Below, in pieces: positions 45,895 to 50,817 of a stretch of DNA of 64,000 nt. Position 1 is the stretch's first letter. Each line of letters starts with the position of its first letter. A model generated the notes under the pieces. The model made no database searches. It was not told where the DNA came from and saw only the letters and a program-made list of their open reading frames with translations. Location: positions 620,001 through 684,000 of the forward strand of contig NZ_LR593886.1 of the NCBI RefSeq assembly GCF_901538265.1. Reading direction: 5' to 3'. This DNA is from Gemmata massiliana. GTDB taxonomy: Bacteria; Planctomycetota; Planctomycetia; Gemmatales; Gemmataceae. The translations under genes were made by a program, and so were the position numbers.

Positions 45895-47976
45895 ATGAAC
45901 CTGCTCGTGACGTGGAAAAAGGTGCTGCTGTTCGGTGCCTTCGGTGCGGTCGGCTGTCTGGCCGGCTGGCTCGTCGGTGAGCCGCTCATGTGGGCGTCCC
46001 GATCGGTCGCGGAGGCGGCCGGGGCCAAGGACGTTCCGTCGCTCATCTCCAAACCGGCGCCCCAATTCGCCGAACCGCCCCCGCTTCCCAGCGACTTCCG
46101 CGAGCGCGTTGAGAAGGCAGGCGGGAAGTCCGGAGACGTGCAGCTCTCGCTCATCTGGTACAACGCCAACGACCTCGACTTGTACTGCAAGGATCCGAAC
46201 GGCGACGTCGTTTTCTACAAGAACCCGCGCGTACCCAGCGGCGGCGAACTGGACGTGGACGCAAATGCCGGCACGACGCGCAGCGGCCTCCCCACGGTAC
46301 TGACCACCGAGCCGGTCGAGAACATTTACTGGCCGAAGGGCGGCGCACCGGCCGGTCGCTATCAGGTGTTCGTCAACTATTTCGCCCACCGCCCGGCGAC
46401 CGGGGCGCCCAACGCGACCAAGTACAAGGTGAACGTCCTCCACGACGGTCAGCGGTACGAGTTTACAGGAACCATCGAGCACGGCGGCACACAGCGGAAC
46501 GAGCGCCTGATTTACGAGTTCGAGTTGAAGCCCCGGCTCGAACTGTTAGCCCCCGACGAAGTGAATTTGCTTCCAGCCGCGCCCGCGATCAAACTTCCGG
46601 TCGCAATCCGGCGGACGTACTACAAGGGACCGGTCGAGGTGCGAGCCGAGAATCTCCCGGAAGGTGTGGCCGCGGGTACACTCACCATTCCCGAAGGCGA
46701 GAACGAGGGCGAAATCGAACTCCAAGCCGTCGAAGGCGCGAAGGAAATCAAGAAGGCCGCCATCAAACTCGTCGCCACCGGCGGCAGTCTCGATTCATCG
46801 GCCAGCGTGCAGGTCGCCACACTCAAGCCGGTCGTCGCGTTCTCTCTTTTCGCAACACTTTCTACTGGCGCATGGACGGCACTACTCGCGATCGGGTTGT
46901 GCCTCGCGCTCCTGGCCGGGCAGAACAAGTACCTCGGCAAACCGTTGTTCGCATCGAGCCGCATTCCGCTGTTGGTCGTGATTCTGGGAGCGGGAGGGGC
47001 CGGCTTCGTGTCGGGGAGCGTCGGACAGTTGCTCTTTTTTGCGCTGCTCGCGAGCGGCGCCGCGAACCTCGGCTTTCTGGTCGGCTGGGTGCTTCTTGGC
47101 GCGCTCCTCGGGTGGGGCATTAGTCGCTTCGTCCCGAACCTGGACGGCCTGAAGGCGGCGCTCGCGGGCCTGGGCGGTGGGTTGCTCGGTGCGGGCGCGT
47201 TCCTGCTCCTGTCCGAACTCGCGCAGTGGACCGGGCGCTTCGGTGGTGCAGTGATACTTGGTTTCTGTATCGGGCTGATGGTCGCGGTGGTCGAAGCCGC
47301 GTTCCGGCGCGCGTGGATCGAAGTGCGCTACGGTGAGCGCGAAGTAATTACCGTGAATCTCGGTGCCGAACCGGTGCGGATCGGTGGGGACTCGAAGGCC
47401 TGCACCGTCTGGGCACGCGGAGCCGCTTCGATCGCTCTCAAATACTGGATTCGCGACGGGCAGGTACAGTGCGCGGACGTGCCTGGGAAGCAAGAAACGC
47501 CCGTCGCGGACGGTGATACGCGGACGGCCGGCAACGTAACTGTGATCGTGCGCACGAGCAGCGCTGTCGCACCAATGGAAGACACCCGGCCGACCGTGGT
47601 ACGCGCGGCCGCGCCCACGGCCCCTGCGCCGGCGCGACCGGAACCCGTGGCGACATCACCGCCGCCTCCCGCGGCGCCCGCTCCGCTCGATTACGACGAC
47701 GGGCTGCCGATGCCGTTGTCACCTCCCCTGCCCGCGCGACCCGCGGTGACGTCCATTCTCGATCTGGACGACGGCCCGGCTCAGACGGTGCGATCGGCTG
47801 GCGCGGCGCCAGCTCCGTCGAAATCCTCCGCTCCGTCAGCACCCGTCGCGGCCCCGCGCCCGGCGCCGACGAGTACACCCAATTCCAGCGCTGTGGACGT
47901 GTGCCCGACGTGCGGTCGGAAGATACCCGGGCGCACCGGCGCCCGATACTGTGTGGTTTGCGACCGGACGTTTTGA
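45895..47976 (+). CDS. Multi-domain membrane protein: DUF2135-like, 6 or so TM, FHA-like and zinc-ribbon domains
   Basis: 693 aa. Order: TM1 (about 11-30); a DUF2135/YfaP-like beta domain (about 80-175; GDVQLSLIWYNANDLDLYCK, NPRVPSGGELDVDANAGT, NIYWPKGGAPAGRYQVFVNY); a second beta domain (215-305); a TM block (about 310-470, rich in Gly, for example GFLVGWVLLGALLGWGISRF); an FHA-like fold (about 475-555; TVNLGAEPVRIGGDSKACTV, ALKYWIRDGQVQ); a Pro/Ala linker (560-665); and a C-terminal zinc ribbon with CPTCG and CVVCD pairs (669-691). FHA domains read phospho-threonine. The FHA call is weak in sequence but fits the neighbours, a VWA protein and a PP2C phosphatase. Confidence 0.6.
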   Translation: MNLLVTWKKVLLFGAFGAVGCLAGWLVGEPLMWASRSVAEAAGAKDVPSLISKPAPQFAEPPPLPSDFRERVEKAGGKSGDVQLSLIWYNANDLDLYCKDPNGDVVFYKNPRVPSGGELDVDANAGTTRSGLPTVLTTEPVENIYWPKGGAPAGRYQVFVNYFAHRPATGAPNATKYKVNVLHDGQRYEFTGTIEHGGTQRNERLIYEFELKPRLELLAPDEVNLLPAAPAIKLPVAIRRTYYKGPVEVRAENLPEGVAAGTLTIPEGENEGEIELQAVEGAKEIKKAAIKLVATGGSLDSSASVQVATLKPVVAFSLFATLSTGAWTALLAIGLCLALLAGQNKYLGKPLFASSRIPLLVVILGAGGAGFVSGSVGQLLFFALLASGAANLGFLVGWVLLGALLGWGISRFVPNLDGLKAALAGLGGGLLGAGAFLLLSELAQWTGRFGGAVILGFCIGLMVAVVEAAFRRAWIEVRYGEREVITVNLGAEPVRIGGDSKACTVWARGAASIALKYWIRDGQVQCADVPGKQETPVADGDTRTAGNVTVIVRTSSAVAPMEDTRPTVVRAAAPTAPAPARPEPVATSPPPPAAPAPLDYDDGLPMPLSPPLPARPAVTSILDLDDGPAQTVRSAGAAPAPSKSSAPSAPVAAPRPAPTSTPNSSAVDVCPTCGRKIPGRTGARYCVVCDRTF

Positions 47977-48053
47977 ATATTGTGAGTGTGGGTACCATCG
48001 AGCGACCGCGAGAAAACTCAGCCTTCCATGAACGAAGACGAGGAGCTTCTGTT

Positions 48054-48950
48054 ATGCCCTACGATATGCAGATCGATCGCTCGAATCCCGGGTGTATTGT
48101 GTTCCTGGTGGACCTGTCCAACTCGATGCTGGACGGGATCGCGGGCACGCAGCGGGCGAAGATGGACACCGTTTCCACCGCCATCAACCGGTTCTTCCAG
48201 GAACTCATCACGAGCTGCGAAAAGGGCGAAGAGAAACCGCGTAATTACTTCGACGTGGGCCTGATCGGGTACACCACCGACGCCAACGGGGTCGCCATCG
48301 TCCGCCCGCTGTTCCAGGGGGCACTGTCCGGGCGCGACCTCGTTTCCATCAGCGAACTGTACGACACCCCGCTCGAAATCGAGCAGCGGCGCAAGAAAGA
48401 ATTCGTGGACGACGGCGCCGGCGGGCTCACGGAAATGGAGCGCCAGATCGCGTTCCCGGTCTGGTTCCGCTCGCCGGCCCAGGGCGAGATGTTCGGCACT
48501 CCGATGTGTACCGCGCTCGGGTACTGCAAGCAGGTGATCCAGACGTGGATCGACGCCCACTCGGGCAGTTTCCCTCCGATGGTCATCAACCTGACCGACG
48601 GCGAGTCCACCGACGGGGTGCCGGTGCCGTTCGCCGAGGAACTCAAGGGGCTGGCGACCGCGGACGGCAACGTGTTGCTGTTCAACTGCCACCTGTCCGG
48701 GCGCGACGCGCAACCCGTGTTCCTCCCGCCGACCGAGGCGCAACTGCCCGACGAGTACGCTCGCGACCTGTTCGGGATGTCCAGCCCGCTGCCGGACAAA
48801 CTGCGGCACATGGCCGAGGTGAAGGGCATTTCCGCGCCTTTGGGGTGCAAGGCGATGGCGTTCAACGCGGACGCGGTGAGCCTGCTCAAGCTCCTGAACG
48901 TCGGCACCCAGGTAGTCGCAGCTGCCACTCTCCCGCCGCACCTGCGGTAA
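48054..48950 (+). CDS. TerY-like cytosolic VWA protein
   Basis: 298 aa from ATG 48054, with GAGGAG upstream. One VWA domain with an intact MIDAS: D20-L-S-N-S24 (VFLVDLSNSMLDGI), Thr about 148 (GTPMCTALGYCKQV) and Asp about 182 (MVINLTDGESTDG). The layout, with RAKMDTVSTAINRFFQEL after the MIDAS and no TM segment, is that of TerY-type VWA proteins, which co-occur with PP2C phosphatases and kinases in predicted phospho-signalling triads. The C-terminal part (DLFGMSSPLPDKLRHMAE) is of unknown fold. It stands 77 bp after the FHA-like membrane gene. Confidence 0.85.
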   Translation: MPYDMQIDRSNPGCIVFLVDLSNSMLDGIAGTQRAKMDTVSTAINRFFQELITSCEKGEEKPRNYFDVGLIGYTTDANGVAIVRPLFQGALSGRDLVSISELYDTPLEIEQRRKKEFVDDGAGGLTEMERQIAFPVWFRSPAQGEMFGTPMCTALGYCKQVIQTWIDAHSGSFPPMVINLTDGESTDGVPVPFAEELKGLATADGNVLLFNCHLSGRDAQPVFLPPTEAQLPDEYARDLFGMSSPLPDKLRHMAEVKGISAPLGCKAMAFNADAVSLLKLLNVGTQVVAAATLPPHLR

Positions 48951-48956
48951 CCAACG

Positions 48957-49050
48957 GTTCCAGGTTCCAAGTCCCAGAGTTCCCGGTTGAAGTCGGGACT
49001 TGGTCTTGTGTGCTTTAAACTTGGAACCTGGGAACTCCGGACCTGGAACT
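48957..49050. repeat. Palindromic element between VWA and PP2C genes (family D)
   Basis: Two nested inverted repeats: CCAGGTTCCAAGT (48960-48972) with ACTTGGAACCTGG (49019-49031), and CCAAGTCCC (48967-48975) with GGGACTTGG (48995-49003). Variants of GGGAACTC and CCTGGAACT recur outside them. The element fills the whole 106-bp gap between two genes that appear to work together, so it could be a processing or attenuation site in one transcript. Confidence 0.6.
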
Positions 49051-49056
49051 CGGATA

Positions 49057-50817
49057 ATGGACCCGATCTCCGCCGATCCGCCCCCCGGCTGTGTCGTACT
49101 GTTGCTCAGCCTGTCGGCCGAGATGACCGCGAACGTGGTCACCGAAACCGGCACTTTGACGGCGGCCGCGGCGGAACGGCGCCTGGCGGCGGGGGTCGTC
49201 GAAGGGTTGGTGAGCGCGGTCGCGGCCGGGCACGCGACGGGGCCGATCGACGTGGCCGTTCTGGGTTGCCGCGCGCTCGAGGACGGGGCATTTCAACTGA
49301 TTTCGCTGTTGCCAGTCGGTGACCCGAAACCGCAATTCCTCCCGCTCGCACAACTCGCGCGAATGTTCGCGCTTGAACACGCAACAACCACGGACCAGCC
49401 GCGCGAGTGGGTCACGGCCCCCGAATGCGAGGGAGAAGCGTGCGCGCCCCCGGCGCTCGCGCGCGTCTACCAGATGGTGTCGGTGTGGCTCACCGGCCGG
49501 TTCGCGTCGCGTGCGCCGGTTGTGGTTCACTGCACCACCGCCGGCGCGCTCAACGAAACGTACTTTCGGACCGCGCGCTCGCTGCGCCTGCTGGCAACGG
49601 CACACGGCACGCCGCGTTTGCTGCACTACGTGTTCGATCCGGAACCGGAGAGCGAGGTCGTCGAGCGGCTCGCGGACGTTTCGGCCGAATTACCCGCGAA
49701 GGATGGCTCAACGCGGCGCGCGGTGTTCGTCAATTCGTGGGACATCCGCGACCCGCTGAGCGCGATTTTCTCCTACGCCCCACGAAGAGACACGATTCCT
49801 TGGCGCCGCGGCCGCGCGGGATTTCGCACGACCACGACGATGTGGACCCAGAAGCTGGGGAACGCGCCGGACCAGTGGGAAGACGCCTTTGCACTGGATG
49901 AATCATCCAGCGCAACGGCCGTGTCCGACGGGGCGAGTGCGGGCATCTTTTGCAGCATTTGGGCGCAGCAGTTGAGCCGGCGGTTCCTGTCCGATCGGCC
50001 CGACGCACGCGATCCGGCCGCCCTGAACCGGTGGGTGAATGATCTGCGTGCCGAGTGGCGCACCGCGATCAATTACGACAACCTGAACTGGTCGAAGCAG
50101 GCGAGAGTCGATCAGGTGGGCGCGGCCGCGACTCTCTTGGGACTGGAACTCGGTCCCGCGGACGCACAAGGCCGGCGCCCGTGGCGCGCGTGTGCGGTCG
50201 GCGACGCGAGCCTCTTTTGGGTCCGCGCCAACCGGTTGCTCGCGACGTTCCCGGTGGTCGCGGCCGACCAGTTCGGGTCCGCGCCGCTTTTAGTTCGATC
50301 GAATCCGGGGTTCCGGACGCTCGCCCTCGTCGCGGCCGGCACGTGCGAACCCAACGACCGGTTCGTGCTCGCGACCGACGCCGTTGCCGCCCGCCTGTTC
50401 CGGAGCATGGTGGCCGACTACGACCTGGATTGGGGCCGGTTCGAGGCGCTCGACGAGGTCGACTGGTGCGCGGAGATGGACGCGCTCCGCAAATCGAACG
50501 ACATGGTGAACGACGACTGCACGCTCATCGTGCTCCGCGTCAGCGAGTTCACGGGCGCGACCGAGGTGCCCGACTTCGGAGACGTTGAAGAACAGGAAGA
50601 CCTTCCGTTTGCCGAAACGGAACCGTTCGCCGAAGACATCGAAGACGCGGAGCCGGCGCACCCAGTCGCCAGTTCCGCGCGTTCGGCCGAAGCGGACTTC
50701 ACCGCGGACGACATCGACGACTCGATGATCGAAGAGCCTTCCGATCTGTTAGAACCGGGACCAGAAGAACTCCCGCCGACCGACGATTCCCCGAAATCAA
50801 CGGACCCGAGCAAATGA
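49057..50817 (+). CDS. VWA-like and PP2C-like phosphatase fusion
   Basis: 586 aa from ATG 49057. The N-terminal third (about 1-240) looks like a degenerate VWA fold: GCVVLLLSLSAEMTANVV takes the place of the MIDAS strand but the Asp is Ser (S-L-S-A-E). Residues about 265-490 are a PP2C domain of the TerY-associated kind: WEDAFALDESSS, ATAVSDGASAG, ACAVGDASLFWV, FVLATDAVAARLF and NDDCTLIVLRV. All five positions carry the expected acidic metal ligands, except that the usual SDG is ATDA. The tail (500-586) is acidic and probably disordered. It should dephosphorylate Ser/Thr in the cassette. No kinase gene is adjacent. Confidence 0.75.
   Translation: MDPISADPPPGCVVLLLSLSAEMTANVVTETGTLTAAAAERRLAAGVVEGLVSAVAAGHATGPIDVAVLGCRALEDGAFQLISLLPVGDPKPQFLPLAQLARMFALEHATTTDQPREWVTAPECEGEACAPPALARVYQMVSVWLTGRFASRAPVVVHCTTAGALNETYFRTARSLRLLATAHGTPRLLHYVFDPEPESEVVERLADVSAELPAKDGSTRRAVFVNSWDIRDPLSAIFSYAPRRDTIPWRRGRAGFRTTTTMWTQKLGNAPDQWEDAFALDESSSATAVSDGASAGIFCSIWAQQLSRRFLSDRPDARDPAALNRWVNDLRAEWRTAINYDNLNWSKQARVDQVGAAATLLGLELGPADAQGRRPWRACAVGDASLFWVRANRLLATFPVVAADQFGSAPLLVRSNPGFRTLALVAAGTCEPNDRFVLATDAVAARLFRSMVADYDLDWGRFEALDEVDWCAEMDALRKSNDMVNDDCTLIVLRVSEFTGATEVPDFGDVEEQEDLPFAETEPFAEDIEDAEPAHPVASSARSAEADFTADDIDDSMIEEPSDLLEPGPEELPPTDDSPKSTDPSK

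Follow-up and report, generated by a model that had tools for sequence, protein, structure and literature searches.

A membrane protein, a TerY-type VWA protein and a VWA-PP2C fusion at one locus

The window analyzed here is a 64,000-nucleotide stretch of Gemmata massiliana DNA (contig NZ_LR593886.1, positions 620,001 to 684,000 of the forward strand), and the genome it belongs to (G000) is a single contig of 10.1 Mb, 98.86% complete. Between positions 45895 and 50817, the window carries three genes, all on the plus strand, which encode a membrane protein (here called M), a TerY-type von Willebrand factor A (VWA) protein and a PP2C phosphatase fused to a second VWA-like domain, in the order M-TerY-PP2C. 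We consider it moderately probable that they belong to a TerY-P-type kinase/phosphatase switch, to which they would contribute the membrane, VWA and phosphatase components, with the kinase gene about 1 Mb away. The three-gene set had been proposed in a first-pass annotation of the window, and the open reading frames (ORFs) are indeed present; the ATG codons at 48051 and 49057 are the preferred starts of TerY and PP2C, the longer ORFs being upstream extensions. In agreement with the annotation, which had made its reading depend on joint conservation and on an FHA-fold match (borne out below), M, TerY and PP2C occur together at 15 of the 20 loci compared among the closest relatives; three loci are cut by contig edges and two have TerY-PP2C without M alongside.

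TerY matches the PADLOC model of that name (Table 1), and the D.S.S, T and D residues of its metal ion-dependent adhesion site (MIDAS) are invariant in 22/22 aligned TerYs (two with stops were left out), as expected from the first-pass description and from TerY-P systems. It is the only TerY of the window genome, and 18 of the 19 genomes of the genus have one copy each at 80-99% identity, compared with about 48-60% for M and 49-63% for PP2C in most rows; TerY is far more conserved within the genus than either. The 19th genome (G020) has M, and its PP2C lies at a contig end where TerY is expected; we therefore rejected it as a clean example of a genome with neither TerY nor kinase. Some Gemmata genomes have a second, TerY-P-like locus, where GAP1-N2/GAP1-M and a TerY-type VWA share a single ORF (L062:9784-11874, likewise L067, L070 and L112), a covalent link between TerY and GAP1.

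The phosphatase likewise matches its PADLOC model, and residues E275, D276, D291, G292, D383, D441, D486 and D487, which include the acidic metal ligands seen earlier and required of a TerY-P phosphatase, are invariant in 18/18 rows. Pfam gave no match to the window PP2C at E ≤ 1, PP2C_2 matching 12/18 relatives, and a PDB search with the PP2C profile returned nothing at E ≤ 1; NCBIfam had no useful match for any of the three window proteins. The N-terminal half, previously described as VWA-like, is so and can be defined further: it aligns with TerY (hhalign 99.1%, E = 1e-18) with changed MIDAS positions, and is by profile comparison a TerY paralog with a dead MIDAS.

M combines an ectodomain, an FHA fold and a zinc ribbon

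The predicted domain order of M is an N-terminal transmembrane (TM) segment (residues 10-28), a beta-sandwich ectodomain, several more TM segments between about residues 313 and 470 (all from a crude hydropathy scan), an FHA-fold domain, a Pro-rich linker and a zinc ribbon. If the N terminus lies inside and the number of TM segments is even, as hydropathy suggests, the FHA fold and the ribbon would be cytosolic. The zinc ribbon that the annotation had placed on M is borne out by four cysteines at the C terminus in 15 of the 18 rows of alignment A6, which includes one M2-type paralog row (L100) and excludes the G009 M; two of the three misses are at contig edges and one lacks the last Cys. The G009 M, with one in-frame stop, was also left out of alignment A9, as was L140. 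G009 is Gemmata sp. IIL30, a close relative of the window genome, and the stop in its M (L117, 10001-12076) reflects either a broken gene or a sequencing error.

The ectodomain was modeled with a predicted local distance difference test (pLDDT) score of 94.1 as DUF2135-like and Ig-like beta-sandwiches. The DUF2135-like start noted earlier stands in part: in the window protein, the Pfam match falls below threshold (E = 0.036), and 6/18 aligned relatives match (best 1e-4). Foldseek with the ectodomain returned mainly tandem Ig-like chains at low TM-scores of about 0.2-0.35, which would support tandem Ig-like sandwiches and nothing more. M-like proteins with an ectodomain and an FHA-like region also occur outside Planctomycetota, in a Pedosphaera metagenome-assembled genome (L144), with no TerY, PP2C or kinase match within the 21 kb examined there.

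The FHA-like fold suspected in M is well supported by structure prediction. The AlphaFold2 model of residues 460-560, built from 40 sequences, has a mean pLDDT of 88.5, and its best Foldseek matches in the PDB are FHA domains (E 2e-4 to 1e-3, TM-scores about 0.6-0.7). Fourteen matches have E ≤ 0.001, nine of them with an FHA domain named in the title; the remaining five comprise OdhI (4qcj) and, from 2-oxoglutarate dehydrogenase complexes, four chains that we take to be the FHA partners OdhI/GarA. The degenerate FHA folds of type III secretion (YscD/MxiG/PscD) are also among the Foldseek matches. The best VIA-align superposition has a Z of 11.7 and a root-mean-square deviation of 2.0 over 86 residues (3gqs_B), and hhalign aligns the region with 16 FHA domains of the same genome at 89.4% (E = 2e-6). 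Pfam FHA is not among the matches of A6, and a PDB sequence search with the FHA-region profile found no FHA match, its best hit being a single-stranded DNA-binding protein (SSB, E = 0.15). The fold is thus detectable from the predicted structure, not from sequence alone.

The annotation had further supposed that M reads phosphothreonine at the membrane, and this we do not accept as shown. The window genome has 22 FHA (PF00498) matches, and all 16 in the comparison alignment (A10; six were left out) keep the G and R of "GR". In M, the positions of the phosphothreonine-binding signature (GR, S..H, N), mapped by profile alignment and not by superposed coordinates, tell otherwise: the Arg is replaced in 40/40 relatives (G in 32, S in 7, D in 1), the His position is A in 39 and T in one, and the Asn loop is deleted in the hhalign profile alignment. 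Since the signature Arg is absent throughout, phosphothreonine reading by M is unsupported, although the FHA fold itself is present.

A TerY-P-type kinase lies elsewhere in the genome

An author-devised kinase catalytic-loop motif occurs in none of the six frames of the 64-kb window, a weak negative. As the annotation had supposed, a kinase is encoded elsewhere: the sole match of the kinase profile (A1) in the genome, at G000:C1:9788840-9791737, is the ortholog of the operon kinase of the relatives described below and lies about 1,011,530 bases (about 1.01 Mb) from TerY if the contig is circular. It contains the motifs HGDLQHDN and VDYDG, and its match to STK_OB, the TerY-P kinase model of PADLOC, has E = 2e-52 and is confined to the kinase half (positions 3-289 of 562). 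Neither C-terminal element of TerY-P kinases was found: a paired CxxC, as in a zinc ribbon, is present in 0/22 kinase rows, and the OB-fold, judged by the STK_OB profile only, lies in the unmatched half. A PDB search with the kinase profile gave weak matches only, including kinases whose catalytic loop aligned at E 0.42-0.86.

The profile matches 21 of 22 genomes searched. Among 95 genomes of the family, 21 have the full-length kinase, and precisely these also carry this TerY subtype (at least 55% identity); the other 74 have neither (Fisher 1.6e-21, with genomes that are not independent). At a looser cut (kinase E ≤ 1e-40), a TerY-P-type kinase is found in 44/46 TerY genomes and 3/49 others. 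Beside a distant TerY, a triad kinase of the STK_OB kind is fused to a WD40 propeller (L061:10037-13159).

Relatives carry a larger operon that is scattered and reduced in the window clade

Gene calling and clustering of 20 loci around the closest TerY orthologs revealed a larger operon, at its fullest GTPase-kinase-GAP1-c5-M-TerY-PP2C-c4, with all eight genes so ordered in L127 and L142. The GTPase-like member is a TM/zinc-ribbon protein, the GAP1 member is GAP1-N2 (39.7 bits, cut-off 24), and c5 and c4 have no family name in Pfam or PADLOC. The term "cassette without a kinase" therefore holds for the locus of this genome, not for the family: kinase and TerY lie within 10 kb on one contig in 9 of 20 kinase-bearing relatives (G004, G006, G014, G015, G018, G021, G022, G023 and G025, the last with only the C-terminal part of the kinase on the TerY contig). 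They are unlinked in five (G009, G010, G011, G024 and G026), and contig ends obscure the linkage in six (G012, G013, G016, G017, G019 and G088); in G012, linkage is suggested by pieces of M at two contig ends.

The break points differ (M|TerY in G024, c6|c5 in G010, c7|c6 in G026), and so do the partners with which M remains: the kinase in G024 (L099), TerY in G010 and G026, and TerY-PP2C in the window. In the kinase tree, G000, G009 and G011 group together with 100/100 support, nested inside the genus, and linked operons occur in other genera and deep clades; rows G021, G023 and G025 are truncated, and G004, G006 and G088 are long branches of uncertain placement. Because the window clade is nested and linked operons reach other genera and deep clades, linkage is probably ancestral and scattering secondary.

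The GTPase, GAP1, c4 and c5 profiles match 18, 18, 18 and 19 of 22 genomes, and none matches in G000, G009 or G011. The GAP1-N2 and GTPase genes expected of a GTPase-centric GAP1-N2 system were not found in the window genome with profiles A2 and A3; its clade retains the genes for the kinase, M, TerY and PP2C, along with one M2 paralog (C1:229710).

Table 1. Positions of the genes, domains and repeat discussed, numbered within the window
Feature	Position	Strand	Basis or content
M, membrane protein, 693 aa	45895..47976	+	Ectodomain, TM region, FHA fold, Pro-rich linker, zinc ribbon
Predicted ectodomain of M, residues 61-310	46075..46824	+	Model; sub-threshold DUF2135
Predicted FHA-fold domain of M, residues about 470-557, without phosphothreonine signature	47302..47565	+	AlphaFold2 model, Foldseek, VIA-align
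Four-Cys zinc ribbon, C terminus of M	47908..47973	+	Alignment of relatives
TerY-type VWA, MIDAS intact	48051..48950	+	PADLOC PDLC02224, E = 3.5e-77
Imperfect inverted repeat, TerY/PP2C intergenic	48957..49049	+	RNA folding
TerY-like VWA with dead MIDAS fused to PP2C, 586 aa	49057..50817	+	PADLOC PDLC02222, E = 1.3e-24, residues 269-496

The inverted repeat between TerY and PP2C has a predicted RNA fold of -52.5 kcal/mol (z -5.35), and a 106-base query containing it matches only itself within its own genome.

Discussion

Our best reading is that the locus is a reduced, scattered relative of a GAP1-N2-linked TerY-P system, with M as a putative membrane anchor or receptor. The part list, the intact catalytic and metal motifs, the single TerY-P-type kinase, the operon in relatives and the co-distribution argue for such a switch, as do the fusions of a TerY-like VWA with PP2C and of GAP1-N2 with TerY. 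The kinase and PP2C would act in opposition on a shared target, presumably held by the TerY VWA through its MIDAS and by the dead-MIDAS VWA of the phosphatase. The ectodomain of M may sense the cell envelope, and its FHA fold and zinc ribbon may dock the kinase, TerY and PP2C proteins at the membrane, probably without canonical phosphothreonine binding. The GAP1/GTPase module may be what the switch controls in relatives; in the window clade, where this module is lost, the switch would act with the reduced set. The binding among the parts and the direction and identity of the signal are steps that we infer. More tentatively, we can imagine a TerY-P switch turned into a transmembrane receptor, in which the FHA fold of M would be a phosphate-independent dock for the TerY VWA and the phosphatase pseudo-VWA, the zinc ribbon would have moved from kinase to receptor, and an envelope signal would set the kinase/phosphatase balance despite the loss of the GTPase module and the relocation of the kinase gene.

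Several points weigh against this proposal. The switch is deduced from genome comparison, and other Ser/Thr kinases of the window genome could serve instead. The kinase profile has seven rows, all from linked loci, and the Pfam match behind the GTPase assignment falls below the cut-off (DO-GTPase2, 21.1 bits against 27). The co-occurrence is clustered by descent and must partly be due to it, because 18 of the 21 genomes belong to one genus. Furthermore, M is not indispensable, since G014 keeps TerY-PP2C without it; there, c5 directly adjoins TerY and only M2-type copies of M are seen.

The co-distribution also bears on the possibility that a different Ser/Thr kinase, of Hanks type, or no kinase at all serves the three genes, and that the distant kinase is an unrelated survivor. 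This would fit the different genes that surround the kinase in the window clade (L095-L097), but the exact match between the kinase and TerY-subtype distributions and the probably ancestral linkage make it very improbable. A better candidate, still an unlikely one, is an anti-phage TerY-P system whose genes happen to occupy two loci. PADLOC has matching models for each of the three TerY-P parts; activity of a TerY-P triad against T7-like phages is reported (PMC7699616), and conflict systems of the GAP1-N2 type have been described (PMC7159879). Against this, TerY looks like a vertically kept core gene, because it is single-copy in nearly the whole genus at high identity, and the kinase has no zinc ribbon and only a partial STK_OB match. 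Rather doubtful, and between these two in our estimation, is phosphothreonine recognition by M through a non-canonical site of its FHA fold, such as Arg508, conserved in 36/40 rows; the canonical Arg, Ser/His and Asn have been lost or fall in a deletion, and the model also matches the degenerate FHA folds of type III secretion.

TerY-P modules occur widely, and anti-phage activity is reported for one kind. Here, a TerY-P-type switch appears to be linked to a membrane protein that has an ectodomain, and the genus keeps the switch in nearly every genome. Through natural gene losses, the parts that stay (kinase, M, TerY and PP2C) can be told from the dispensable ones (GTPase, GAP1, c4 and c5). 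Among CC-licensed PMC papers, we found no description of this gene arrangement, which is weak evidence of novelty.

Comparison with known systems

Some parts recall ArnA-ArnB of Sulfolobales, with a zinc-ribbon and FHA protein, a vWA partner, Ser/Thr kinases and a phosphatase; ArnA is described as working with ArnB as a regulator at promoters, and it retains the Arg/Ser/Asn for phosphothreonine (PMC10470591, PMC6509490). The corresponding parts, an FHA-fold protein with a zinc ribbon and a vWA protein that may bind it, are present here, and we take the resemblance as a putative functional parallel, whereas M is membrane-bound and lacks the residues that ArnA keeps.

TerY-P systems are described as consisting of a VWA, a PP2C and a kinase with a zinc ribbon, or with an OB-fold in the anti-phage version (PMC11090510). 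All three parts are present in the window genome and match the three PADLOC models. The genes are, however, not adjacent, and even linked relatives have GAP1, c5 and M in between; the kinase is unlinked and has neither a zinc ribbon nor a matched OB half, PP2C is fused to a dead TerY-like VWA, and the zinc ribbon sits on the membrane FHA-fold protein.

According to Kaur et al. (2020, PMC7159879), the theme in which a GAP1-N2 system includes a kinase, PP2C and a standalone vWA is confined to actinobacteria. The operon of the relatives shares GAP1-N2, a GTPase-like zinc-ribbon/TM protein, the kinase, PP2C and vWA with that theme; it differs in having M, c4 and c5 added, and the window clade differs further in lacking GTPase and GAP1. 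The system described here is planctomycete, and the published kinase/PP2C/vWA theme would thereby extend beyond actinobacteria.

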